In this document: piece by piece, positions 26,146 to 52,156 of the stretch | Numbering within the stretch: position 1 is the stretch's first letter | Layout of the letters: each line of letters begins with the position of its first letter | Origin: Thauera sp. K11 | Lineage (GTDB): Bacteria; Pseudomonadota; Gammaproteobacteria; Burkholderiales; Rhodocyclaceae | Length of the DNA stretch: 64,000 nt | NCBI RefSeq assembly: GCF_002354895.1 | Contig: NZ_CP023439.1 | Location: forward strand, 2,790,001 to 2,854,000 | Reading direction: 5' to 3' | The notes under the pieces: model-generated | Databases searched by the model: none | Told to the model about the DNA's origin: nothing | Seen by the model: the letters and a program-made list of their open reading frames with translations, nothing else | Program-made: the position numbers and the translations under genes

Positions 26146-26175
26146 TTGACAGCCCACGCCCGCCTCCGTTTTAAT
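26146..26175 (+). promoter_or_regulatory. Promoter of the tandem riboswitch transcript
   Basis: A perfect TTGACA (26146-26151) is followed, after 17-18 bp, by TTTTAA/TTTAAT (26169-26175). Transcription would start around 26181-26183, exactly at the first base of the SAM-II-like aptamer. Confidence 0.7.
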
Positions 26176-26183
26176 CAATCCAT

Positions 26184-26238
26184 CGCGCCGATTTGAGAAC
26201 ACAGCTTGCGGGCGCCTAATAAATGCAGCTAAAGCGGC
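26184..26238 (+). promoter_or_regulatory. SAM-II-like riboswitch aptamer (copy A)
   Basis: P1 is GCGCC (26185-26189) with GGCGC (26211-26215). The loop begins GATTTG and ends GCTTGC. Downstream, AATAAATGCAGCTAAAGCGG carries the conserved SAM-II 3' segment (AUAAAUGNAGCUAAA). The loop GCTT (26204-26207) can pair with AAGC (26232-26235), giving the H-type pseudoknot that defines the class. I matched it from memory of the SAM-II metX aptamer, not by a covariance search. SAM-II normally turns down methionine/SAM genes when SAM binds. An intrinsic terminator follows, so transcriptional control is likely. Confidence 0.72.
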
Positions 26239-26243
26239 CACAC

Positions 26244-26285
26244 AAGACCCGCTGAGCCTGCATGGCCATCGGGTCTTTTGCTTTT
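26244..26285 (+). terminator. Intrinsic terminator after aptamer A
   Basis: AAGACCCG (26244-26251) pairs with CGGGTCTT (26270-26277), with a possible inner GCC/GGC stem, followed by TTGCTTTTT. Lying 6 nt after the SAM-II-like aptamer, it is the likely expression platform of copy A. Confidence 0.75.
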
Positions 26286-26315
26286 TGCAGCACCTCACGG
26301 GCGCCCAGCGCCCAA

Positions 26316-26426
26316 CCGCCGGCATTAACGACAACTTGCCGGGGCGGATGAAAAATACCGGCTAAAGCGTCACCGCCTCTTCGCCCCCGCGAGGCCGGTC
26401 ACGCCGGCTCAACAGGGGGCGAGGAG
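26316..26426 (+). promoter_or_regulatory. Second SAM-II/SAM-V-like aptamer (copy B) with Shine-Dalgarno-masking hairpin
   Basis: CCGCC (26316-26320) pairs with GGCGG (26343-26347). The loop ends in ACTTGCC, and the 3' segment ATGAAAAATACCGGCTAAAGCG repeats the GCTAAAGCG of copy A (26361-26369). A second CCGCC (26373-26377) can compete for the same GGCGG. Just after it, CTCTTCGCCCCC (26377-26388) pairs over 12 bp, with one G-U, to GGGGGCGAGGAG (26415-26426), burying the ribosome site of the next gene. This implies translational control downstream of a transcriptionally controlled copy A. Confidence 0.6.
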
Positions 26427-26433
26427 CATCACC

Positions 26434-26601
26434 ATGATCAGCACGCAATCCACGGGCGACCGGCGCCTGACCCCCAGCCAGCGCGAGGCACTGGGCAAGT
26501 TCGTCCCCCATCCCTTTCCGCTCGCGCATGCGAGCACGCCGGTGCGCCAGCCGTCGAGCGAGCCCCTGCCGATCCGCCCAAGTTGGCTGGGCTGGCGTTG
26601 A
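26434..26601 (+). CDS. 55-residue protein under riboswitch control
   Basis: A short gene with a good ribosome site (GAGGAG at 26421-26426, 7 nt before the ATG). The product starts MISTQSTGDRRLTPSQREA, is Pro-rich toward the C-terminus and ends PSWLGWR. I do not recognise it, and it is not a known methionine enzyme. It is too short for the track of longer frames, but everything upstream (promoter, two aptamers, terminator, masked Shine-Dalgarno) points at this start codon. It could be a genuine small protein or the preserved start of a longer gene lost to rearrangement; an integrase remnant lies 140 bp downstream. Confidence 0.55.
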   Translation: MISTQSTGDRRLTPSQREALGKFVPHPFPLAHASTPVRQPSSEPLPIRPSWLGWR

Positions 26602-26743: not shown

Positions 26744-26983
26744 TTGACGCGCAGGGCGGTGCATAAAATCGTGCAAGAGGTCTTCGAGCGTGTTGCGAAG
26801 CGAGGGGAGGCTCTTGATGACGAACTCAGATCGCGCACAAACATCCTTAGCACTGCCTCCGCGCACTGGCTTCGTCACACGGCCGGTTCGAACATGCCCG
26901 GCGCCGAGGTCGATCCTCGGTTCGTCAGCGACAACTTGGGGCACGAGTTCATCTTGGCCACGAGCTTGTACTTGCAAAGTTGA
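26744..26983 (+). pseudogene. Tyrosine recombinase C-terminal remnant
   Basis: This 79-codon frame contains the C-terminal catalytic signature of phage-type integrases: HWLRHTAGS (the His-x-x-Arg pair), LGH, and a tyrosine near the end (LYLQS). The N-terminal two thirds and most of the catalytic domain are missing, so it cannot be active. It marks a past integration or deletion next to the riboswitch unit. Confidence 0.75.
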
Positions 26984-29070: not shown

Positions 29071-30513
29071 TCACAGCGCGTCCAGCAGCTTCATGAAGTT
29101 CCGCTTGCGCTTCCACTCCAGCCGGATTTCCGCCAGTTCGTCGCCGAACATGCCCAACTGCTGGTGCGCCACCCGCAGTGCGCGGATCTTCTTGACGATT
29201 GCAAAGGCCTCCCCGTAGTGGGAACCGCGCGAGCCGCCTTCAACCCGATGCGGCAGCAGGCGCTTGTAGAGCGCGATTGCCTCCTCGTGGTGCGTCGTGC
29301 CCCGCGCTTCGGCCACCGACTCCCACAGGCCAACATCGACCTTGCCCCCGCTGAATGCATCCCACATGGTCTCGGCCTCACCCTCGCGCAGAAAGATGGA
29401 CACGATGTCGCCCCGGCAGGGTTTGTCCCATGGACTGCGGCGAACGCGGCTATCGGCGGCTTCTTCCTCCGCGACCTTCTGCCACAGGAAATCGAGCGCC
29501 CGCTTGCGCAGCGCGGCCTCGCAGCCAATCAGACCGGCGACTTCCATCAACTTGAAGAATGAACCGCAGCCAGGGGCCTGCTCGAAGCGCTGCCAGGCGA
29601 GTCGCTCTACCTCCGCATGCCGCCCAAGCGCCAGCTGCAGCTCGATGGCAAGGCTCAGCAGGTCGTCATTGCGCTCATTCGGAAACGCCGCAATCCCCTG
29701 CTCCACCCAGCACAGCGCCTCCTCCTTACGGCCTCGGTCACGAAACAATCCGACCAGCGTCAGGAAGCACGACGGGGACGACAGATTCTTCGCCTGGATG
29801 GCGACCAGCAACTCGAAGTCATCCGTGCAGCGAGCAATATCCTTCATCGCCGACTCCACCTGGAAGCGTCGCGTGCTCCAGTCGCTACGATAGTGCTCGG
29901 GACCCAGGGTCGGCAGGGCCAGCCAGTCGCGCTCGACCCGCTGCCGATATGCGGCCAGCCCTTCCTCGCCCAGCGCCTCGGCGTAGTCGGGGAGCACCTC
30001 ATGAAAGGTGTCCCATTGACCATTCATCTGGAAACCGTACAGGCGCTCGGCCAGCGCAACGGGGTCGGGATGCAGGGCGTTACAGGCCGCCAGATGCACT
30101 CTTCGCAGTTCAACAACCGCCGGCATCACCTCGCCGCCGGAATCGTCGATGTGCTGCAAGGCCTCTTCCGCGAGCGCGATGGCTTCCTCGATGACCTCGA
30201 TGAGTTCCTCCTGGCCGTCCGCAATGCGCTGTGACAGCAGTTCCCCGAGGTCTTCCAATCGGATTGCGTAAGCTCCAGCTTCCCGATACTCAATGAAGCC
30301 GTTCGTGCGGGTGGCCTGCTTGACCACCTTACGCAAGTCGGAAAGACCGGTGCTATCCGCCACGGTCGCTGCCATCAACAACTTTTGGCGCAGGGCGTCA
30401 TCACGCCAGGATGCTTCGACGATGAGCTTGCGCAGTGCTGCAACATCCAACCCCTGCAGGTAGGCCTCTATGCGCCCTTCGTCGGACTGCCAGTCATTTT
30501 TCGCTGCCATCAA
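29071..30513 (-). CDS. Helical repeat protein of unknown function at the end of the BREX operon
   Basis: This 480-residue protein is all-helical by composition, with TPR-like stretches (around 255-320 and 410-450) and an ending RKRNFMKLLDAL. It resembles the helical C-terminal part of SWIM-zinc-finger-associated proteins (DUF6880-like); that family name is a recollection, not a search result. There are no catalytic motifs. Its start overlaps the brxL stop codon by 4 bp, so it is translationally coupled to brxL. This is the strongest reason to think it belongs to the defence system. Confidence 0.65.
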   Translation of the reverse strand: MMAAKNDWQSDEGRIEAYLQGLDVAALRKLIVEASWRDDALRQKLLMAATVADSTGLSDLRKVVKQATRTNGFIEYREAGAYAIRLEDLGELLSQRIADGQEELIEVIEEAIALAEEALQHIDDSGGEVMPAVVELRRVHLAACNALHPDPVALAERLYGFQMNGQWDTFHEVLPDYAEALGEEGLAAYRQRVERDWLALPTLGPEHYRSDWSTRRFQVESAMKDIARCTDDFELLVAIQAKNLSSPSCFLTLVGLFRDRGRKEEALCWVEQGIAAFPNERNDDLLSLAIELQLALGRHAEVERLAWQRFEQAPGCGSFFKLMEVAGLIGCEAALRKRALDFLWQKVAEEEAADSRVRRSPWDKPCRGDIVSIFLREGEAETMWDAFSGGKVDVGLWESVAEARGTTHHEEAIALYKRLLPHRVEGGSRGSHYGEAFAIVKKIRALRVAHQQLGMFGDELAEIRLEWKRKRNFMKLLDAL

Positions 30514-32555
30514 TCCACCAGTGCCTTCAACAGCGCATCCCGCGCATCCTGGTAGAACTCGATGTCCAGCTTGGTCGCCATATCATCCGACAGGTCGAAC
30601 AACTGCCGCCGGCAGCTAACTGGCATGAGCAGCGATTTGGCGCCCTTCTCGACCGCCATCTCGGCGATGGTCACAGCGTTGTGAACGGGCTCGATGGTGC
30701 CCCCGATGGTCACCTCACCAACCACAATCAATCCACCGCGGACCGACTTCCTCAGCAAGGCGCTCGACAAGGCAATCAGGCAGGCGACTCCGGTCTTGGC
30801 CCCACTCTTGGCTGCGTCGAACCCCCGAAGCTGCACCGAGAACTCGTGCGAGCGCGGGTCACGGTCGCCGACCAACTGCGCTGCGCGGGTGTAGAGGTTC
30901 TGCTCCGCGCAGCGCACGGACTCCTGAAACGCTGGCGGCACGGGCTTATTCAGCACGCGAACACCGCTTCCAGGGCCCTCGGTCACCTCCAGCCGGAACA
31001 GGCCCGGGTGCTCGTCCGCACCACCGGGACTGAGCGTCCAGATTTGGCCCGACTCCAGCGGTTCATCGCCGATGCCCTCCTGGCTGCGCAGCTCCGGTGT
31101 GGTCACGAACTTCTCCACCCCTTCTGCGCCCAGGGTGTAGCTAAAGTGGGTGTTGCGGAATTCGGCCGCGCCGATGCGCTTTTGCTGCTCCTTCACCCGT
31201 CGACGTACCTCGAGCGCCAGTCGCACCGCCCACTCGAGGTCCTCATCGCTGACCGCTTCCTCTGCGTCCGGATGCAGCAGCTTCAGCAAGCCGCTCACAG
31301 TCTTGTTTACCGCATTGATGTCCCGGCCGGACAAGGCGCCACCGAGGAACACCCTGCCCTGCATCGTCGACACCCGGCTCTGGTTGCGCAGTTGCGTGAA
31401 GCACTCGGACAGAAAGTCGCTCACCAAGCCAAAGTGCTGGGTAAACAACGCCGGGTTCATCTTCGGCACGTCCCACCCAGGCAGGAAGCCGTGAATCCGG
31501 TCCATGAAGGCGGTGTCGTCACGCATCTCGGGAGGCAGCGGGCCGAGCAGATGACCGATGCGCTGTTGATGCTCGACGTCTACGTCGAAGTTGCCGACCA
31601 GCACGATGGAGCCATCGGCACGGATGCTCTCCTTACCGCGCGAGAATTCGCCCGACTCCATGTAGCCCTTCATGATGTTGACGCCATCCTTCTGGTCGAA
31701 GGACACGCCTGACACCTCATCGAAGCAGACCACGTCGTACTGGCAGACCAAGCCGCGCTGCCCGTTCGAGTTATTCACGAACATCCGCGCCACAGTCGCC
31801 TTGCCGCCGGAAATCAGGTGGGCATAAGGCGACACCTGCTGGAATAGGTGCGACTTGCCGGTGCCGCGCGGCCCGAGTTCCACCAGGTTGTAGTTGCGCT
31901 CGACGAAAGGAACCATGCGCAGCAGCAACGCATCCTTCGCACGGTCGTTCAGCCCATCGGGCTCGAAGCCAACGCTGCGTAGCAGGAAGTCGCGCCACTC
32001 GGCCGTGGTCAGCTCTTTGCGTCCCTCGGCAAGAGAGGTCAGCACATCCCGCTTGGAGAGTTGAATCGCACGCAGCGCGTCGATGCCGAACGGTCGCCCG
32101 CCCTTTTCCTGGGCAATTGCCGCATCGTAGCCGAGCGTGATTTCGGCGTAGAAGCCACCAGTGAGCATGCGCTCGTGCTCCTTGATGAGCTCGGGCGAGA
32201 TACGCACGTCGTTCAGCCTCAAGCTGGGCAAGGACGCAACATACGAGTCGCTCTTCGCATCAAGTCGCGCAGTGATGATGTCGATGATTTTCACCGCACC
32301 CGTCTCGCGCGCGCGCGCCTTGAAGAGCTCCTCTTCGCCGGCCTTCACCGTGCGCGACTGGAGCTGTCGCTGAACGATTTCCAGGCCTTCCTGAATCTCA
32401 GCCTCGTCGGTTGTCGCGCAGTAGCGGCCGAGTAGAAACTCGACGACATAGGTCGGCACGGGAAACTGGCGGCTGAAGGTTCGCACCAGGTCCTTACGGA
32501 CGATAAAGCCATCGAAGGCGGAAGCCGCCTTGCGGTCGAGGTCATCGAGATTCAT
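30510..32555 (-). CDS. brxL: BREX AAA+/Lon-like protein BrxL
   Basis: The 681-residue protein carries a P-loop LGPRGTGKSHLFQQ (about residues 210-223) and a Walker B-like VVCFDEVSGV. A C-terminal Lon-protease-like domain follows (VGEVTIGGTIEPVHNA). BrxL forms DNA-binding AAA+ rings in type 1 BREX. The Lon catalytic dyad looks absent: the PSAG serine position reads AKTG, and the GGLKEK lysine position is not lysine. ATG 32555 is favoured over a GTG four codons upstream. Its neighbours are pglZ upstream and an overlapping helical protein downstream. Confidence 0.92.
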   Translation of the reverse strand: MNLDDLDRKAASAFDGFIVRKDLVRTFSRQFPVPTYVVEFLLGRYCATTDEAEIQEGLEIVQRQLQSRTVKAGEEELFKARARETGAVKIIDIITARLDAKSDSYVASLPSLRLNDVRISPELIKEHERMLTGGFYAEITLGYDAAIAQEKGGRPFGIDALRAIQLSKRDVLTSLAEGRKELTTAEWRDFLLRSVGFEPDGLNDRAKDALLLRMVPFVERNYNLVELGPRGTGKSHLFQQVSPYAHLISGGKATVARMFVNNSNGQRGLVCQYDVVCFDEVSGVSFDQKDGVNIMKGYMESGEFSRGKESIRADGSIVLVGNFDVDVEHQQRIGHLLGPLPPEMRDDTAFMDRIHGFLPGWDVPKMNPALFTQHFGLVSDFLSECFTQLRNQSRVSTMQGRVFLGGALSGRDINAVNKTVSGLLKLLHPDAEEAVSDEDLEWAVRLALEVRRRVKEQQKRIGAAEFRNTHFSYTLGAEGVEKFVTTPELRSQEGIGDEPLESGQIWTLSPGGADEHPGLFRLEVTEGPGSGVRVLNKPVPPAFQESVRCAEQNLYTRAAQLVGDRDPRSHEFSVQLRGFDAAKSGAKTGVACLIALSSALLRKSVRGGLIVVGEVTIGGTIEPVHNAVTIAEMAVEKGAKSLLMPVSCRRQLFDLSDDMATKLDIEFYQDARDALLKALVD

Positions 32556-32612
32556 CGTGTTCTGCACGCTCTGTTCTTGTTCCGCTCTGTACGTGTTCGT
32601 CTCGCGGGCGAC

Positions 32613-40569: not shown

Positions 40570-41479
40570 GAAGCGCTAACAAAATGCATGCTATGCCTTT
40601 CGCAATTGCCGCCAGCAGATGATGCAGCAGGCTATCTCGAGAAAGGCTTCGTGGATGATGGCCAGCCGCTCGAAACGGATGCGCAATCGCCGAAAGTTGT
40701 GCAGCCAACCCAAGGTGCGTTCCACAACCCAACGGGTCTTGCCCAGACCGCTGCCATGCGGTTGGCCCCGGCGGGCGATCTGGGTGGTGATGCCTGCAGC
40801 GTGGAGCGGTCGGCGGTACTTGTCGTGGTCGTAGCCGCGATCGGCCTGCACGAGTCGGGGTTTCGACAGCGGTCGGCCGCGCTTGCCACGGATCGGCGGG
40901 ATCGCCTCGACCAAAGGGAGAAGCTGGGTGACGTCGTTGCGGTTGGCACCGGTGAGGATCACCGCCAGCGGGATGCCTTGCGCTTCGGTGATGAGATGGT
41001 GCTTGGAGCCTGGACGAGCGCGATCGGTGGGGTTCGGTCCTGTTTTTGACCGGCCCCCACAGCGCGTATGGACGAGGAATCGACGATGGCGCGAGACCAA
41101 TCGAGGCGGCCGGCAGCGCGCAACCGTGCAAGCAGCACTTCGTGCAGGCGGTCCCACACGCCGGCCTCCTGCCACTTCCGTAGTCGTCGCCAGCAGCTCA
41201 TCCCTGAGCCGCAGCCCATCTCCTTGGGGAGCATCTCCCAAGGAATGCCCGACTGCAGCACGAAGAGGATGCCGGTGAGCACCTTGCGGTCGTCCAGTGG
41301 CTTGCGTCCGGGATACCGTTCCCGGCGCGGCTTCGGTGGCGGCAACAGCGGCTCGATCAACGCCCACAATTCGTCATCCAGTATCGGTTTCGCCATCTCC
41401 TCTGCCTCGACAAACAAGGCAGAGGTTAACAAATGAAATCAAGGGTGAACAGCCCATTTCATCATTTTGTTAGAGCTTC
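40570..41479 (-). mobile_element. IS5-family insertion sequence inside pglX1
   Basis: This 910-bp element has terminal inverted repeats GAAGCKCTAACAAAATG (left end 40570, right end 41479, one mismatch). It is flanked by TAA direct repeats (40567-40569 and 41480-41482), a TNA-type target duplication of IS5 relatives. Near-perfect ends and an undecayed target duplication indicate recent insertion. It carries a single transposase gene read through a -1 frameshift. Confidence 0.9.
40591..41396 (-). CDS. IS5-family transposase (two frames joined by -1 frameshift)
   Basis: The first frame (41396 to about 41050) starts MAKPILDDELWALIEPLLPP, includes the DUF4096-type N-terminus, and reaches the first catalytic aspartate in AIVDSSSIRAVGAG. 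The second frame continues SKTGPNPTDRARPGSKHHLI, with the second aspartate in VQADRGYD and a glutamate in VVERTLGWLHNFRRL. The frames meet at an A5 run (about 41042-41050). A ribosomal -1 slip there is typical for this IS5 subgroup, so the transposase is probably functional rather than broken. Confidence 0.85.
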
Positions 41480-43806
41480 TAAGTGGCTGGCAAACCGTTC
41501 GGGAATTGACGTTCGGCCTCAGCCTGCCAGCGCGGCAGGTCAAAGCCCACCCGTCCCAGCGCTGCATTGGCCACGCAGATTCGCCTGTCGATTTCGTGCA
41601 CCGCCTCGGTGTATTCGTCCGAAGAGCAAAACGCCATCACTGCGGGCAGTAGCGACTCATCGCGGGGAATGATGGCAGCCGTGGTCTGGTTATAGAAGTT
41701 ACCGAGATACGGGCCGGCTTCCAACTGCCGCATCCGGCTCACCGCCACACCCTTCTTACCCCACGCTGCCTGGCCACGGATGTAGGCGAGGCCGCTGCTC
41801 ATCAGGTCTCCGCTGCCCTGCTGCCAGTAGAACAGCGAACTCAAACCCGTAAGCTTGCCGGTCTCTTCCGGAGACTCCTGCATGTACTCCCAATCCGGCG
41901 TTCGCAACGGAAGTTCCCAGAAGAAGCGGCAGTAACGAGGGTAGTCGCTCGTCTGCAAGCCCACATAGGGCGTGGCGAACTCGGAGAGCGGCGGCAGGCT
42001 TCCACCCTGGGTCAGGGCAATCAGATAGTCGGGGCTTCCGCTGACCTGCGCGAAAGCAAGCGCATCGGGCACGGCTGCCCCCAGGGCCGCAGCCTTCTCC
42101 TCCGCTGTGCGATGTATCGCGACATCGACAACGGCGATGTGGCTATCCACTTCCGGTACGAGACGCTCGAACACCAGCAGCGACGGGAACGCCCCTGCCG
42201 CGTCCACGCTACGGAATGCCCCCTCGCCTAGATTGGCGACACTCCGCAGTGCCGCCTGCTGGAGGATGGCGCGACGGTGCGCCCCATAGCTGCCAGCGAA
42301 CAGCCAGGACTGCTGCAGCACACAACCGACTCGGCCTTCTGGTTTGGCGAGTTTGAGGCAATACTCCAGAAACACCGCTCCCAGGTCGTGCCGCGCGTCG
42401 TAGAACTGCGCCTCGACAAACTCACGCAGCGCGTCACACATCCGCCCGCGGCCCAAGAAGGGCGGATTAGTCACCACGACGTCGTAACGTTCCCGGAGCA
42501 AGGCGACGGCACGCGCAAACCCCTGCGCGGCGATGAACTGCTCCTCGCCCTCTGCATCCCCTGCGCCCCTCGAGTCCTCTTTCGCCAGGGCCTCTTCCCA
42601 TTGCGCAGAGTCGAACTGCACTGGCAGCAGACTGCCACGCAAGGGCGCCGAACCCGAACGACGCCGGCTCGGCGCACGTCCGGCACAGGCCAGGTTCAGT
42701 TCAGGCAGAGGGCGAAACCCTAGGGGGCACCCCTCTTCATCGGGATACGACCACGCCGCGAGCGCCAACGCAAAGGCGGCAATCTCCACACAGCGCGCGT
42801 CCAGTTCCACGCCGAAAAGGTTCTGAGCCAACACCGAGTCGACGGCATTACGAACACTCAGCCCCTCTGCCAACACCCGCATGGGCACCAACAAATGCAG
42901 CGCAGCCACCAGGAAATGCCCCGACCCGCAGCACGGATCCATCAGCTTCAGGCTCCCGAACCGCCCAATCGTCGACTTCGAAGGCTGCGCGCTACCGCCC
43001 GCATTCGGGGTAACGAGGTAGCGCAGCGCCAAACGCTTGGCCAGCTCAGGATGACTCGCGCGCCACAAAGCGCCGACGGTGTTGTGAAGCAGGTATTCCA
43101 CCATGTAGGGCTCGGTGAAGAGCTGGGTCACTGCCGGCAATTCGTCAGCACCCACCTTCATCTGTGAGGCATTCACCTCTTCCTTGCGCTTACCCTGCCA
43201 GAATTGGTAGGCCCAGCCAAGGCTGTCGGATGCCAGGAACACGGTTCGCGGAAGACCTGCCAGCAAGCGTTCGAGAGCCTGCTGGTATTCCGGTGCAAAT
43301 CGCAGAGCAAGCACTGGCGAATCGGCGCGGAAGAGCTGCGGCAGCATTCGCTCAGCCAAGCGACCTGCGAGTTCCCACCCACTTCCGACCCTGAGCGCCG
43401 AGCCAGACGAGCCAGCCAGCTCGTGGCACTCGTCCAAGGTCACCGAAACCTCGCCTTCCCAAATCAGCAGGTGCCGCTCGGCGAGAAAACGGGCAAACAG
43501 CATCCGGTGCCAATGCTCGTAAGCCGTCTCCCAAACCAGCCGTTGCACTCCCTGGATGCCATCCGCCCCCAAGGCGTCACCCAGCACCCTCGCATGCGCA
43601 CGTAACCTACGGCGAAGCGCTCGCTGCGGCTCGTCCAAATGCGCGGGCGCCTCATCCTCCGCAACGCCCAGTTGGAACAGGGCGGATTGCGCCCCCGCTT
43701 CTGCCGCCTCCCTGGCAGCGCGCACAGCCGCCTCTAGCTGGCCACGCAAATCGCTCGGCAACGTATGGCCGATGGTGCCGCGCAGGCCGGGAGACGGGTC
43801 AGTCAT
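41480..43806 (-). pseudogene. pglX: pglX1 5' fragment: BREX adenine methyltransferase core
   Basis: This fragment encodes ~775 residues of a PglX-type N6-adenine methylase. The SAM-binding motif is LMDPCCGSGHFLVAA and the catalytic motif IV is VVTNPPFLGRG. Upstream lies the conserved TAYEHWHRMLFARFLAE. Translation ends at a TAG created by the IS5 junction (41481-41479). The methylase motifs are intact, so a truncated protein could be made, but it lacks the conserved C-terminal ~300 residues. It is a paralogue of pglX2, with roughly half or more of the positions similar in the N-terminal part. Confidence 0.88.
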
Positions 43807-48074: not shown

Positions 48075-51000
48075 TTAGCTCCCTCTCGCGGCATCCCGCG
48101 GGGCCCACTTCTGCGCCAGCGTCAGATGATGGTCATTGATGCGGTCGCCCTTGAACACAGCGAACCACGGTGCGCTTTCCACGTCCTTGCCGCGGTCCTT
48201 GTCCCACTTGATGTTGAGCTTCGGGCCCTTGTTGTGGCGCAGCACGCCGGCGGCCATCCAGGGGCGGATGTTGAGGCGCACGCCGTCGTTGAGGTCGGGG
48301 TTCCACCCGATGGGTTGCGCGGCGAGCGGTTTCCAGCGCACGAAAATGTCGAAGGGCGCTTCGCCTTCGAGGATGGCTTCGAGCTTTTTCTTCAGCGCCT
48401 GCGCGGCGGCCAGCCGCTGCGGGGCGCCGTCGAGGCCGCTGGTGACACCCGCTTCCTGAATGCGAATCCAGTCGCCCAGGTAGGTGTGGATGAGGCGCTC
48501 CAGGTTGCGGGCGTTGAGCTTGTGGTAATTGACTAGCGCGCCGAAGCCGTCCTTGAGGCCGTCCCACACATGCCAGATGAAGGGGCGGTGGTGAAAGCGC
48601 TTGGCGTGCTGTTCGAAGAACTTCTCGCGCAGCCACACTTCCAGACTCTTTCCGGCGCAGTCGGCCTCGGCCAGCAGGCGGTCGAGGGTGGAGGCTTTCC
48701 AACTGCCGGGGGTGACGGTTTCCCAGGCGTCGATGAGCAGTGCCAGCAATCGCTCGTGGGCGGGCTTTTCGCCGCGCACGGCAGGCAGGCAGACGAGGCC
48801 GTCGTCGTCGGCGTGGGTGGCGAGCTTGTCGGTGTGCGCAATCCACGCACGGGCCTCGTCGGCGAGGTCCATGCCGGCGTCGGTCTCGGCTGGCCAGCGG
48901 TAGCCGAGCAGGCGGGCGACGGCGACCTGCAGCGGGTCGGTGGCGGGCTGCGGGTGACCGTGGAACAACCACTGGGTGGGGTCGTCGGAATAGGGTTTGG
49001 GCAGGCCGTTGGGGTAGCGCTCGGCAGCGACTTGTTGCCAATGGGCTAAGTCGAAAGGGACTTTGAGCAGAGTTGCATTAGTTACCTTGAGTGATTGGTC
49101 GATTTCCCGCACGACTGAATTGAACCCATCGTCGTCGCAGAAGCACCAAACAGCAGGCAGATGCGCTGGGTCTTTAGGGATGATGCTTGCGCAGTTTCCA
49201 TCAAAAATATTTCCGCAATAACGGGTTACGCGCAACTCTCCTGTAAGAGTTACAGACACTCCGTGCTTTGACCATGCCTCTGCACCTCGGTAGTGAATGT
49301 TCTTCAGGCGATGCCTCAGTGCCTCGGCAAGCGCGATGAGCTCGCCTTTTCCTTTCTGCCAATACACTAGGTGAATACGCCCGCCGAAATCGACGTTGGC
49401 GTCTACCGTCGTTTGTCCGTATTCCCAGTCGTCGCCAGACTCTGCAATTTCCCAAAAAACACGACCAAATCGAACAAAATCGCCAGTGCCTTGACCCCAA
49501 TACGCATCAGCATGCACAGACAACAAGCTACCGGAACTGAGCTGCTCAAATGACACTCGCGCGTCGGGATTGAACAGCTGACTCTTCTGGCTTACGGCCA
49601 CCACCCGGCCGCCGCGCAGCATGGCGGCCTTTTCCTGCGCTGCCCTCGGCCCGCTGGCATCCACGCCGCGCAGGTCAAACGCCACGTCCGCCTGCGCATG
49701 GGTCTGGGTGAGCAGGACGGCCTGTACGACCTCGCCGCTGATGGTCTCGAAGGCGCCCGGCCCCAGCCGCGCCAGCAGATTCCACTGCACCCGCTTCAGC
49801 AGGCTTTCGCGCTGCTTCTTGTAGCTGGTGAGGAACAGCCAGTTCTGCGGCATCACAATCTGCACCACACCGGCCGCGCCACGCTGCGACAGTTCCAGGC
49901 AGCGCTCAAGAAACACGTTGGCGAGGTCGTTCTTGGCGTCCGCGTAATGGTTTTCGCAGAACGCCTTCAGCGCATCGGACTGCTTGCCGCGCGCGAGATA
50001 GGGCACGTTGGTCACCACCAGGTGGTAACGCGCATCCAGCAGCCGCGCCGCCTCGAGCAGGCCGCGGGCGGTCAGGGCGTGGTCCCACGCCTCATCCTGC
50101 ACCTCGTTGCCCTCGCCCCACAGCGTGGCCGGGCGCTCGGTGGACAGCGCCCGCTCCAGCAGCGCGCGCAACGTGTCGAAACTGGTGGTGGCGAGGTCGT
50201 TCTTCAGGCTGCGTGCCGGGTCGAGCAGGCTACCCAGCAGCGGCGCCTGCGAGAAGCTGTCGTGTAGCAGGCGCAGTTCCTGGCGCAGGTAGGCGGCGTT
50301 GGGCAAGTCATCCGGGACCAGCGCCATCCAGTCCGCCGCCCGCGCAGCGACCTTCAGCCCGCAGCAGGCGATGTTGGGCGCCGGCATGTCCGCGCGCACG
50401 CCCAGCGGCTGGCCGACCTCGTCCGGGAAGCGCCAGGCGGCGAGCGCCAGCACGAACACTGCGATTTCCACGCAGCGCGGGTCCAGCTCCAGGCCGTGCA
50501 GGTTGTCGCGCAGCACCGCATCCACCGCCTCGCGGGCGGAGAGGCGTTCCGCCGTCATGCGCATCGGCACCAGCATCAGGAAGGCCGCCACCAGAAAGTG
50601 TCCCGAGCCGCAGCAGGGGTCGAGCAGCTTGAAGTCGGCGAGCGTGTCGGGCCAGCCTTCGAACTTGCCGGCGGCAGGGGTGCCGTCCTCCAGCGTGCGC
50701 AGATAGGTGAGCGGCACCGGGCCGGGCGTGTCCGGGTGGCGGGTGAGCCACCAGGCGCCGAGCGAGTTGTGGAGCAGGAAGTCCACCATGTAGGGCTCGG
50801 TGAACAGCTGGGTGACGGCGGGCAGCTCGTCCGCGCCAATCTTCACCTCGGAGGCGTTGACCTCGTCCTTGCGCCGCGCCTGCCAGAACTGATACACCCA
50901 ACCCAGGCTGTCGCTGGCCTGGAAGACCTCGGGCGGCAGGCCGCTAAGCAGTCGTTCCAGCTCGCGCTGATGCTCGGGCGCGAACACCAGCTCGAACACC

Positions 51001-51458
51001 GGATGCTGCGGCTTGAACACCTGCGGCAGCATCCGCGCCGCGAGCTTGCCGGCCAACTCCCATTCGCTGCGCGCGCCCATCGCCATCTCGGGGTGGTGGT
51101 CGACCATCTCGCGGCAGTCCTGCAGCGACACCGCAGCGCCCGGCTCCCACAGCAGCAGGCCGTTTTCGGCGAGGAAGCGGGCGAACAGCATGCGGTGCCA
51201 GTGCTCGTAGGCCACCTCCCACACCAGCCGGCGCAGCTCCTGGGTGTCGTCGCCGTGCTTGGCATCGCCCAGGCTGCGGCCGTGGGCGCGCAGGCGGCGG
51301 CGCAAGGCGCGCTGGGCGTCGTTCAGGTAGTCCGGCAGCCTGCCCTCGCCCACCGCGAGCTGCTGGAGAGCGGCACGGGCGGCGGTCTCGGCGATGTCGC
51401 GGGCGGACTTGACGGTGTTTTCGAGTTGGGTACGCAGCGATTTGGCGAGAGCTGACAT
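48075..51458 (-). CDS. pglX: BREX adenine-specific methyltransferase PglX (intact copy)
   Basis: This 1127-residue N6-adenine methylase is expected to mark host DNA at the BREX motif and is also needed for phage restriction. The SAM motif is LLDPCCGSGHFLVAAF. Motif IV reads VVTNVPYLARGK, with Val where the consensus is NPPY; the disrupted paralogue has NPPF. ATG 51458 is chosen over an upstream GTG because the family N-terminus starts MSALAKSLRTQLEN. The last ~230 residues are nearly identical to the pglX1 3' fragment at DNA level. It is probably the only functional methylase of the locus. Confidence 0.92.
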   Translation of the reverse strand: MSALAKSLRTQLENTVKSARDIAETAARAALQQLAVGEGRLPDYLNDAQRALRRRLRAHGRSLGDAKHGDDTQELRRLVWEVAYEHWHRMLFARFLAENGLLLWEPGAAVSLQDCREMVDHHPEMAMGARSEWELAGKLAARMLPQVFKPQHPVFELVFAPEHQRELERLLSGLPPEVFQASDSLGWVYQFWQARRKDEVNASEVKIGADELPAVTQLFTEPYMVDFLLHNSLGAWWLTRHPDTPGPVPLTYLRTLEDGTPAAGKFEGWPDTLADFKLLDPCCGSGHFLVAAFLMLVPMRMTAERLSAREAVDAVLRDNLHGLELDPRCVEIAVFVLALAAWRFPDEVGQPLGVRADMPAPNIACCGLKVAARAADWMALVPDDLPNAAYLRQELRLLHDSFSQAPLLGSLLDPARSLKNDLATTSFDTLRALLERALSTERPATLWGEGNEVQDEAWDHALTARGLLEAARLLDARYHLVVTNVPYLARGKQSDALKAFCENHYADAKNDLANVFLERCLELSQRGAAGVVQIVMPQNWLFLTSYKKQRESLLKRVQWNLLARLGPGAFETISGEVVQAVLLTQTHAQADVAFDLRGVDASGPRAAQEKAAMLRGGRVVAVSQKSQLFNPDARVSFEQLSSGSLLSVHADAYWGQGTGDFVRFGRVFWEIAESGDDWEYGQTTVDANVDFGGRIHLVYWQKGKGELIALAEALRHRLKNIHYRGAEAWSKHGVSVTLTGELRVTRYCGNIFDGNCASIIPKDPAHLPAVWCFCDDDGFNSVVREIDQSLKVTNATLLKVPFDLAHWQQVAAERYPNGLPKPYSDDPTQWLFHGHPQPATDPLQVAVARLLGYRWPAETDAGMDLADEARAWIAHTDKLATHADDDGLVCLPAVRGEKPAHERLLALLIDAWETVTPGSWKASTLDRLLAEADCAGKSLEVWLREKFFEQHAKRFHHRPFIWHVWDGLKDGFGALVNYHKLNARNLERLIHTYLGDWIRIQEAGVTSGLDGAPQRLAAAQALKKKLEAILEGEAPFDIFVRWKPLAAQPIGWNPDLNDGVRLNIRPWMAAGVLRHNKGPKLNIKWDKDRGKDVESAPWFAVFKGDRINDHHLTLAQKWAPRDAARGS
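48120..48815. repeat. 696-bp near-identical direct repeat (pglX2 3' end)
   Basis: Aligns without gaps to 39696-40391 at an offset of 8424 bp, with only scattered differences (about 95% identical by eye). Both copies have the same orientation and lie in the 3' parts of the two pglX genes. Confidence 0.88.
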
Positions 51459-51460
51459 GG

Positions 51461-52156
51461 TTATCCCAGAAAAGCGACCGCAAAGGCCTTGCGGTGAAAC
51501 TGCTGACACAGGTCCCAAAAATCACGGAACTGGTTATGCGTCATCGCTTCCAGGAGGCCGGACGAGGCTCCTTCGCGTGAAATGACGTAAACGAGCTTCT
51601 CCCCATTGATGACATCAACGTCTACCGGGTCCGAATGAAAAGTGGCGACCCCTGGTTTGCTTGAATCCAAGGGAGCGACTCCCGGCGAAACCTTGACGTA
51701 ATGATTTCCGTCTTGCCGCAGACTCCCTCTGGCAGTGGTTGGAGCTCCCAGTGACGGAATGTCTGCGACATCGCACAACCAAGTATTGGCCAAAACACTC
51801 GTGTGCTTGGACAGCTCGGCCGGTGTGCCAATGACGGGGAATGAATAATAGATGCAGCCCTTTGGTATTACCCCTCCGCCTTTGACTGTAAGCTTGCGAA
51901 GGTTCTCTAGCTGCTCATGCGGAGCCTTGAACTGGCGCTCACCTGATTTCAGCACATGCGTCGAAGCCTTCATCTGTACGATGAAAAGCCCCTTTCCAAT
52001 ACGAGTGGCGATGTCAAAGCCCTGCTCTGCCTCTTGCATTTGAGTGAGGCCGAACCACAGAAGCCTGCCACCACAAGCGTGATTGAGTTGGCTGGCGAAA
52101 TTGAGCTCAAGGGTCTTTTCGGAGAGTTTCGCTTTATCCCACGGCATCGCCGTCAT
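51461..52156 (-). CDS. Hypothetical protein with PD-(D/E)XK-like pattern between brxC and pglX2
   Basis: A 231-residue protein without a family I can name. An early helix with Glu (SEKTLELNFASQL) precedes GFDIATRIGKGLFIVQMKAS, in which Asp, then Gln-x-Lys after a short hairpin, matches the D...QxK variant of the PD-(D/E)XK nuclease core used by Mrr-type enzymes. The start overlaps the brxC stop codon by 4 bp (ATGA), and its stop codon is 2 bp before the pglX2 start, so it is a full member of the operon. Nuclease activity is a hypothesis from the pattern alone. Confidence 0.65.
   Translation of the reverse strand: MTAMPWDKAKLSEKTLELNFASQLNHACGGRLLWFGLTQMQEAEQGFDIATRIGKGLFIVQMKASTHVLKSGERQFKAPHEQLENLRKLTVKGGGVIPKGCIYYSFPVIGTPAELSKHTSVLANTWLCDVADIPSLGAPTTARGSLRQDGNHYVKVSPGVAPLDSSKPGVATFHSDPVDVDVINGEKLVYVISREGASSGLLEAMTHNQFRDFWDLCQQFHRKAFAVAFLG

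Follow-up and report, generated by a model that had tools for sequence, protein, structure and literature searches.

The leader at positions 26146 to 26601 of the window, the 64,000-nucleotide stretch of Thauera sp. K11 analysed here, is by its sequence a genuine tandem of SAM-II-type elements, an architecture that is already known. We consider it likely that the leader joins the metX-type and the metK-type SAM-II switches of the genus in series before p55, a conserved 55-residue protein, which would be made mainly at low SAM. The sequence establishes the structures and their relatives, and shows that p55 is under selection and that leader and gene are constantly linked. In order, the region comprises a promoter, the copy A pseudoknot, a terminator, the copy B pseudoknot, a helix covering the Shine-Dalgarno (SD) sequence and the p55 gene. 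In its anatomy, one transcript with one gene thus carries an aptamer with a terminator, followed by an aptamer with a masked ribosome binding site. These features had been described in a first-pass annotation from the sequence, and re-reading and folding located them as follows.

26146 to 26174, + strand: sigma-70-like promoter TTGACA-17-TTTTAA, from the sequence
26185 to 26237, + strand: copy A, SAM-II-like aptamer of the metX type; P1 26185-26189/26211-26215, P2 26204-26209/26228-26235
26223 to 26263, + strand: predicted antiterminator AUGCAGCU..AGCGG / CCGCU.AG.CUGCAU, from folding; mutually exclusive with the pseudoknot and with the terminator
26244 to 26286, + strand: intrinsic terminator, AAGACCCG at 26244-26251 / CGGGTCTT at 26270-26277 plus T tract, from sequence and folding
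26315 to 26373, + strand: copy B, SAM-II-like element of the metK type; P1 26316-26320/26343-26347, P2 26335-26342/26358-26367, P2a 26330-26332/26369-26371
26377 to 26426, + strand: SD-masking helix of 12 bp with an inner hairpin, 26377-26388/26415-26426, from folding
26434 to 26601, + strand: p55, conserved 55-residue protein, from selection and homologues

The promoter was found as proposed, and its TTGACA is conserved in 8/8 cassettes aligned (L009 and L024, two of the ten cassettes, lie outside that alignment). The second, related pseudoknot was likewise where it had been placed: GCTAAAGCG of copy B starts at 26361, 133 bases after its counterpart in copy A. The 12-bp helix over GAGGAG is formed by CTCTTCGCCCCC and GGGGGCGAGGAG, and the gene of 55 codons follows downstream of it.

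Copy A contains the P1 helix GCGCC/GGCGC and the pseudoknot strand GCUAAAGCGG at 26228-26237. The covariance scan suggested in the first-pass annotation gave a divided answer: in a 0.9-kb search the Rfam model RF00521 (SAM_alpha) matches copy A at 26175-26253 with an E-value of 8.8e-5, but the score of 30.4 bits stays under the gathering score of 36, and at gathering thresholds Rfam yields zero matches in the 64-kb window. Since the metX leader of the window's own genome scores 31 bits with the same model and L024, a paralogue of the cassette, scores 42.8 bits and hence over the cut-off, the low value probably reflects a betaproteobacterial version of SAM-II and not a doubtful match. In the relatives read, A-type elements with terminators were observed upstream of metX, metZ and metH (genes named by eye), and in 21 of 22 Thauera genomes such an element precedes metX. 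The names metX, metZ, metH and metK were assigned from sequence motifs, by eye or by script and not by family search. A further weak match of RF00521 in L009 (739-818, 26.9 bits) was dropped, as R2, a second model described below, does not recover it in that genome.

With SAM-II (RF00521) the leader shares the H-type pseudoknot of P1 and P2, the motifs CUUGC and GCUAAAG, the terminator platform and the position before metX, metZ or metH; it differs in that copy A falls under the cut-off, copy B is unmatched by Rfam and the target is not a methionine gene. SAM-II had been noted earlier in beta-proteobacteria (PMC2258182), and a metXZ RNA element, a pseudoknot with a terminator before metX and metZ, has been described in this group (Leyn et al. 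2014, PMC4239095); judging from that description, this element evidently corresponds to our A type.

The terminator announced behind the first pseudoknot is present as a stem with a T tract, and the L024 paralogue keeps the stem as AGAACCCG/CGGGTTCT. In folding, the antiterminator forms in transcripts ending at 26263 and 26269, and the terminator replaces it from 26275 onwards. Across 38 A-type leaders, a downstream complement of GCUAAAGCG pairs at -11.4 kcal/mol as compared to -8.9 kcal/mol in shuffles, with p<=0.05 in 13 of the 38, several of which are closely related. The window's own copy A (L002) is not significant in this short antiterminator test (p 0.31). In 45 B-type leaders the same complement reaches -7.6 versus -7.9 kcal/mol in shuffles, with p<=0.05 in 3/45. 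The anatomy suggests the following course of events. When SAM is plentiful, the copy A pseudoknot would tie up GCUAAAGCGG, the terminator would form and transcription would stop; when SAM is scarce, the GCUAAAGCGG strand would pair with the 5' part of the terminator (26223-26263) and transcription would go on. Copy B may add translational control through the SD helix, as its metK relatives are positioned to do, although this step is less well founded than the first. The output would be p55 made mainly at low SAM.

The first-pass annotation had compared this two-tier logic with the SAM-II/SAM-V tandem of Pelagibacter, in which two SAM aptamers stand in series and act on transcription and then on translation (PMC11508383, PMC6061858). 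What holds is that a member of the Rhodocyclales carries a SAM-II-type tandem with the terminator in front and the masked SD behind; what fails is a SAM-V aptamer in second position, as a genome-wide search with the SAM-V model RF01826 returned nothing at E<=10, which rules out this identity for copy B. The order of transcription and then translation is common to both systems. Here, however, a helix of its own, 12 bp long, masks the SD sequence in place of the short P2a described for Pelagibacter. The platform order also agrees with published SAM-II tandems: 44 tandem SAM-II riboswitches are known, some with the terminator first and the ribosome binding site second (PMC9481103). The main text of that article contains no mention of betaproteobacterial, hypothetical or small-protein targets on a word search in the spellings used, and its 44 cases may include such leaders.

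Copy B is a SAM-II-like element that is related to copy A yet of a distinct type, and it is not a Rfam-defined member of the class. The pseudoknot core is common to both copies, while the third strand (GCAUUAA versus GAUUUGA in copy A) and P2 differ. With RF00521, copy B stays unmatched at E<=10, as do, at E<=1, the leaders of metK in L025-L027 and the B elements of ten further loci (nine metK leaders and L053). A model built from eight aligned elements (R1) was used to scan 399 genomes of the order and matches at E<=0.001 in 298 of them, A and B types not being separated in this count. Among the best 30 R1 loci, 23 lie directly upstream of metK, four upstream of an ATPase-like gene (L051-L054) and three are small-gene tandems including that of the window (genes assigned by eye). 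A second model, R2, was trained solely on 13 leaders of metK taken from other genomes, and cassette sequence was excluded from it to avoid circularity. In the 64-kb window R2 recovers copy B with 49.6 bits (E 2.8e-13) and copy A with 44.4 bits (E 1.1e-11), these E-values being rough owing to a short calibration, and nothing besides the two copies up to E 10.

A B-type element likewise precedes metK of the window's own genome (L110), where an additional segment, probably a hairpin, is inserted between P1 and the A-rich strand. According to a published survey, no methionine regulator is known for metK of beta-proteobacteria (PMC4239095). For this vacant place the B-type element, which occurs upstream of metK across the order, is a direct candidate.

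The B-type elements ahead of the ATPase-like gene occur in four genomes of one genus (at 1501-1557 in L051, L053 and L054; gene read by eye). In L053, the only one of these loci tested in this respect, a SAM-I/IV riboswitch scoring 44.5 bits (Rfam cut-off 41.1) is located just upstream of the B-type element. This tandem of unlike SAM classes resembles the two cases of SAM-II after SAM-I/IV counted in PMC9481103, and it provides an independent hint that B-type elements may work with SAM. The ligand of copy B bears on a rival reading, which we regard as improbable, namely that copy B senses another compound of the methyl cycle, such as SAH, or switches expression on, so that the tandem would be a two-input gate. 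The differences in third strand and P2 are consistent with it, and folding leaves the sign of regulation by copy B unfixed. The shared pseudoknot core, the position before metK and, in tandem, before metZ, which fits repression by SAM, and the L053 tandem argue against it.

The SD helix is far more stable than shuffles of its region. The region folds at -38.1 kcal/mol, a value reached by none of 60 shuffles, whose mean is -25.3 kcal/mol. In six p55 leaders the mean pairing of the SD sequence is 0.94 versus 0.71 in shuffles; the excess is only weak in 21 metK leaders (0.77 versus 0.68) and in seven leaders of the MYDC family introduced below (0.70 versus 0.60). In static folds the SD sequence is masked both with and without the copy B aptamer, and the best fold with an open SD is about 18 kcal/mol worse; therefore, a simple competing-structure switch is unsupported for copy B. 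A pairing of 26341-26348 with 26381-26388, picked by eye as a possible copy B switch, is not favoured by folding either. The masking in both states would suit a leader in which only copy A switches, copy B is a bound or vestigial element, and the SD helix acts as a constant brake on translation, as would the lack in B-type leaders of the P2 complement found behind A-type leaders. We nevertheless hold this to be unlikely, because copy B is nearly invariant in the ten Thauera cassettes, its P1 and P2 pairing is kept across families, and its type stands alone ahead of metK.

The first-pass annotation had named an absence of compensatory base changes in P1 and the pseudoknot as grounds for abandoning its reading. 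With A- and B-type rows taken together, such changes were seen in both P1 and P2. The set comprised 56 elements, 52 of them distinct, aligned to R1; as P2 is not part of this model, the P2 counts are unforced. Double changes occur in 8 of 17 pairs, including the P1 pair 2-35 (GC, UA, CG and AU) and the P2 pairs 29-65 and 30-64 (GC to AU). Kinship among the sequences inflates the shuffle statistics, which were as follows. Cells changed on both sides number 76 versus 33.6 in shuffles, a value reached by 0/500, and the proportion of paired cells is 91.2% as compared to 34.5-46.4% when the partners are slid. All 500 shuffles stay below the observed values for paired cells, for double-change cells and for the covariation score. 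The count of doubly changed pairs (8 versus 6.0) is reached by 16/500, and one of the five measures, further pair types, is without excess (23 versus 22.9, reached by 299/500).

A scan with R2 at E<=1e-4 covered 22 of the 29 Thauera genomes; those omitted (G004, G009, G010, G015, G019, G023 and G027) are mostly less complete. It returned 64 elements, two each in 13 genomes, four in eight and six in G008. Twenty of the 64 belong to the ten p55 cassettes, and the other 44 lie before metK (22) or metX (21), bar one in G026 that runs off the contig. Thus, apart from metX and metK, such elements were found before no unit other than p55 in these 22 genomes, and the p55 leader combines both types, the metX type and the metK type.

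The p55 gene is real and under purifying selection: over nine full ORFs the pooled pN/pS is 0.24, and the 13 pairs listed give dN/dS values of 0.15-0.22. The conserved blocks are EALGKF and, at the end of the protein, P-x-W-x-GWR. In agreement with the first-pass annotation, the target does not belong to the recognised methionine genes: neither Pfam, PADLOC nor NCBIfam has a family that matches p55. By DNA search the leader is present in 9 of 29 Thauera genomes, in ten copies, the ORF of the G021 copy being cut by the contig end. By protein search the same 29 genomes contain nine strong p55 ORFs, all complete, in eight genomes, and a weak match in G022. A profile search over 199 genomes of the family revealed a second genus with homologues of 54 residues that share 42-47% identity with p55, one copy in G458 and two in G577, all three behind a leader with copy A, terminator, copy B and mask. 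The search for the protein behind such leaders in relatives, as the first-pass annotation had proposed, therefore yielded the leader before 12/12 strong ORFs (nine from Thauera, three from the second genus). Once the second-genus members had been added, the profile turned up no convincing new homologue in the 399 genomes of the order, only three weak matches with stops inside (G148, G189 and G250). Weak p55-like matches in G022, G463, G509, G147 and G495 have no riboswitch nearby and were set aside as chance; those three and two more (G530 and G597) were left out of the count, four of these five having internal stops. Given its inferred output at low SAM, p55 is most likely a small effector of the response to SAM or methionine shortage and not a pathway enzyme.

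A gene whose product weakly matches the ribbon-helix-helix family (RHH_1, 18.7 bits, under the cut-off of 20.5) stands behind p55 in G025 and G012, and in part also in G008 and G026 (loci L009, at 1983-2558 in reverse orientation, L040 and L041); the two genes possibly form one operon.

A pattern search for tandems hit 9 of the 399 genomes; as the reversed control pattern gave six matches, this count by itself proves little, and the loci were then read singly. Tandems of copy A type, terminator and copy B type were observed before metZ (L084, by eye), before genes for 154 (L091) and 167 amino acids (L090), and before proteins of about 100 amino acids that start with M-[YF]-D-C (L083, L085-L088, L055 and L017), here termed MYDC; the reading of L089 was ambiguous. 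The MYDC proteins tested have no convincing match in Pfam or NCBIfam; they are unrelated to p55 and were seen in four other families of the order. A profile of six members, picked for lying behind tandems, matches at E<=0.001 in 38/399 genomes, one of them weakly. At the best 30 MYDC loci (L143-L172), R2 detects an upstream element on the same strand in 30/30 and two in 28/30, two of the second matches spanning only part of the model. Without the six seeds, at least one element is present in 24/24 and two in 22/24.

Such elements, for the most part in tandem with the metX type, hence precede two unrelated orphan families of small proteins, and this gives the functions of these proteins a low-SAM setting that can be tested. 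More tentatively, p55 and MYDC could both be betaproteobacterial SAM-shortage proteins silenced by a double lock of metX-type and metK-type elements, a generalisation that appears possible but somewhat doubtful. If it is true, the tight two-stage repression would suggest small effectors with a direct action on methyl metabolism when SAM collapses, for example by restraining SAM-consuming enzymes. As far as searched, the metK-type element and the orphan small-protein targets are new. In the literature covered, main texts with few subscription journals among them, we found neither a SAM-II-like RNA linked to metK in beta-proteobacteria nor a SAM-II tandem ahead of p55 or MYDC genes.

The surroundings of the cassettes bear on a further proposal of the first-pass annotation, the capture of the leader by a mobile or defence region, with p55 having no role in SAM physiology. 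The DNA downstream is variable, brxL-like genes occur within the stretches read in G000, G028, G003 and G005, a cytosine-methyltransferase-like ORF (by eye) lies downstream in G008, and the second G008 cassette sits elsewhere, near tRNA genes. Nonetheless, we judge capture to be very unlikely, as the leader precedes 12/12 strong p55 ORFs in two genera and 7 of the 10 Thauera cassettes adjoin the same MerR-VIT/VWA genes on one chromosomal side. Moreover, viral contigs contain no p55 relative, phage records give no DNA match, and plasmids give a single match of 53 bases inside copy A. A defence role suggested by BREX-like neighbours was not adopted, since brxL-like genes lie by only 4/10 cassettes, at distances of 0.1 to 4 kb; in this count the L093 stretch would add a weak partial match (E 2e-7), and the other stretches read are short.

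In the window itself, a fragment of a phage-type integrase (26744-26983, Pfam 31.3 bits) is located just 3' of p55. Further downstream, a BREX-like island extends from 30510 to 51518, comprising BrxL (30510-32567, PADLOC 1006.6 bits), a transposase-like ORF (40591-41367) and methyltransferase-like ORFs (41479-43806 and 48075-51518), the latter two labels having been assigned by eye.
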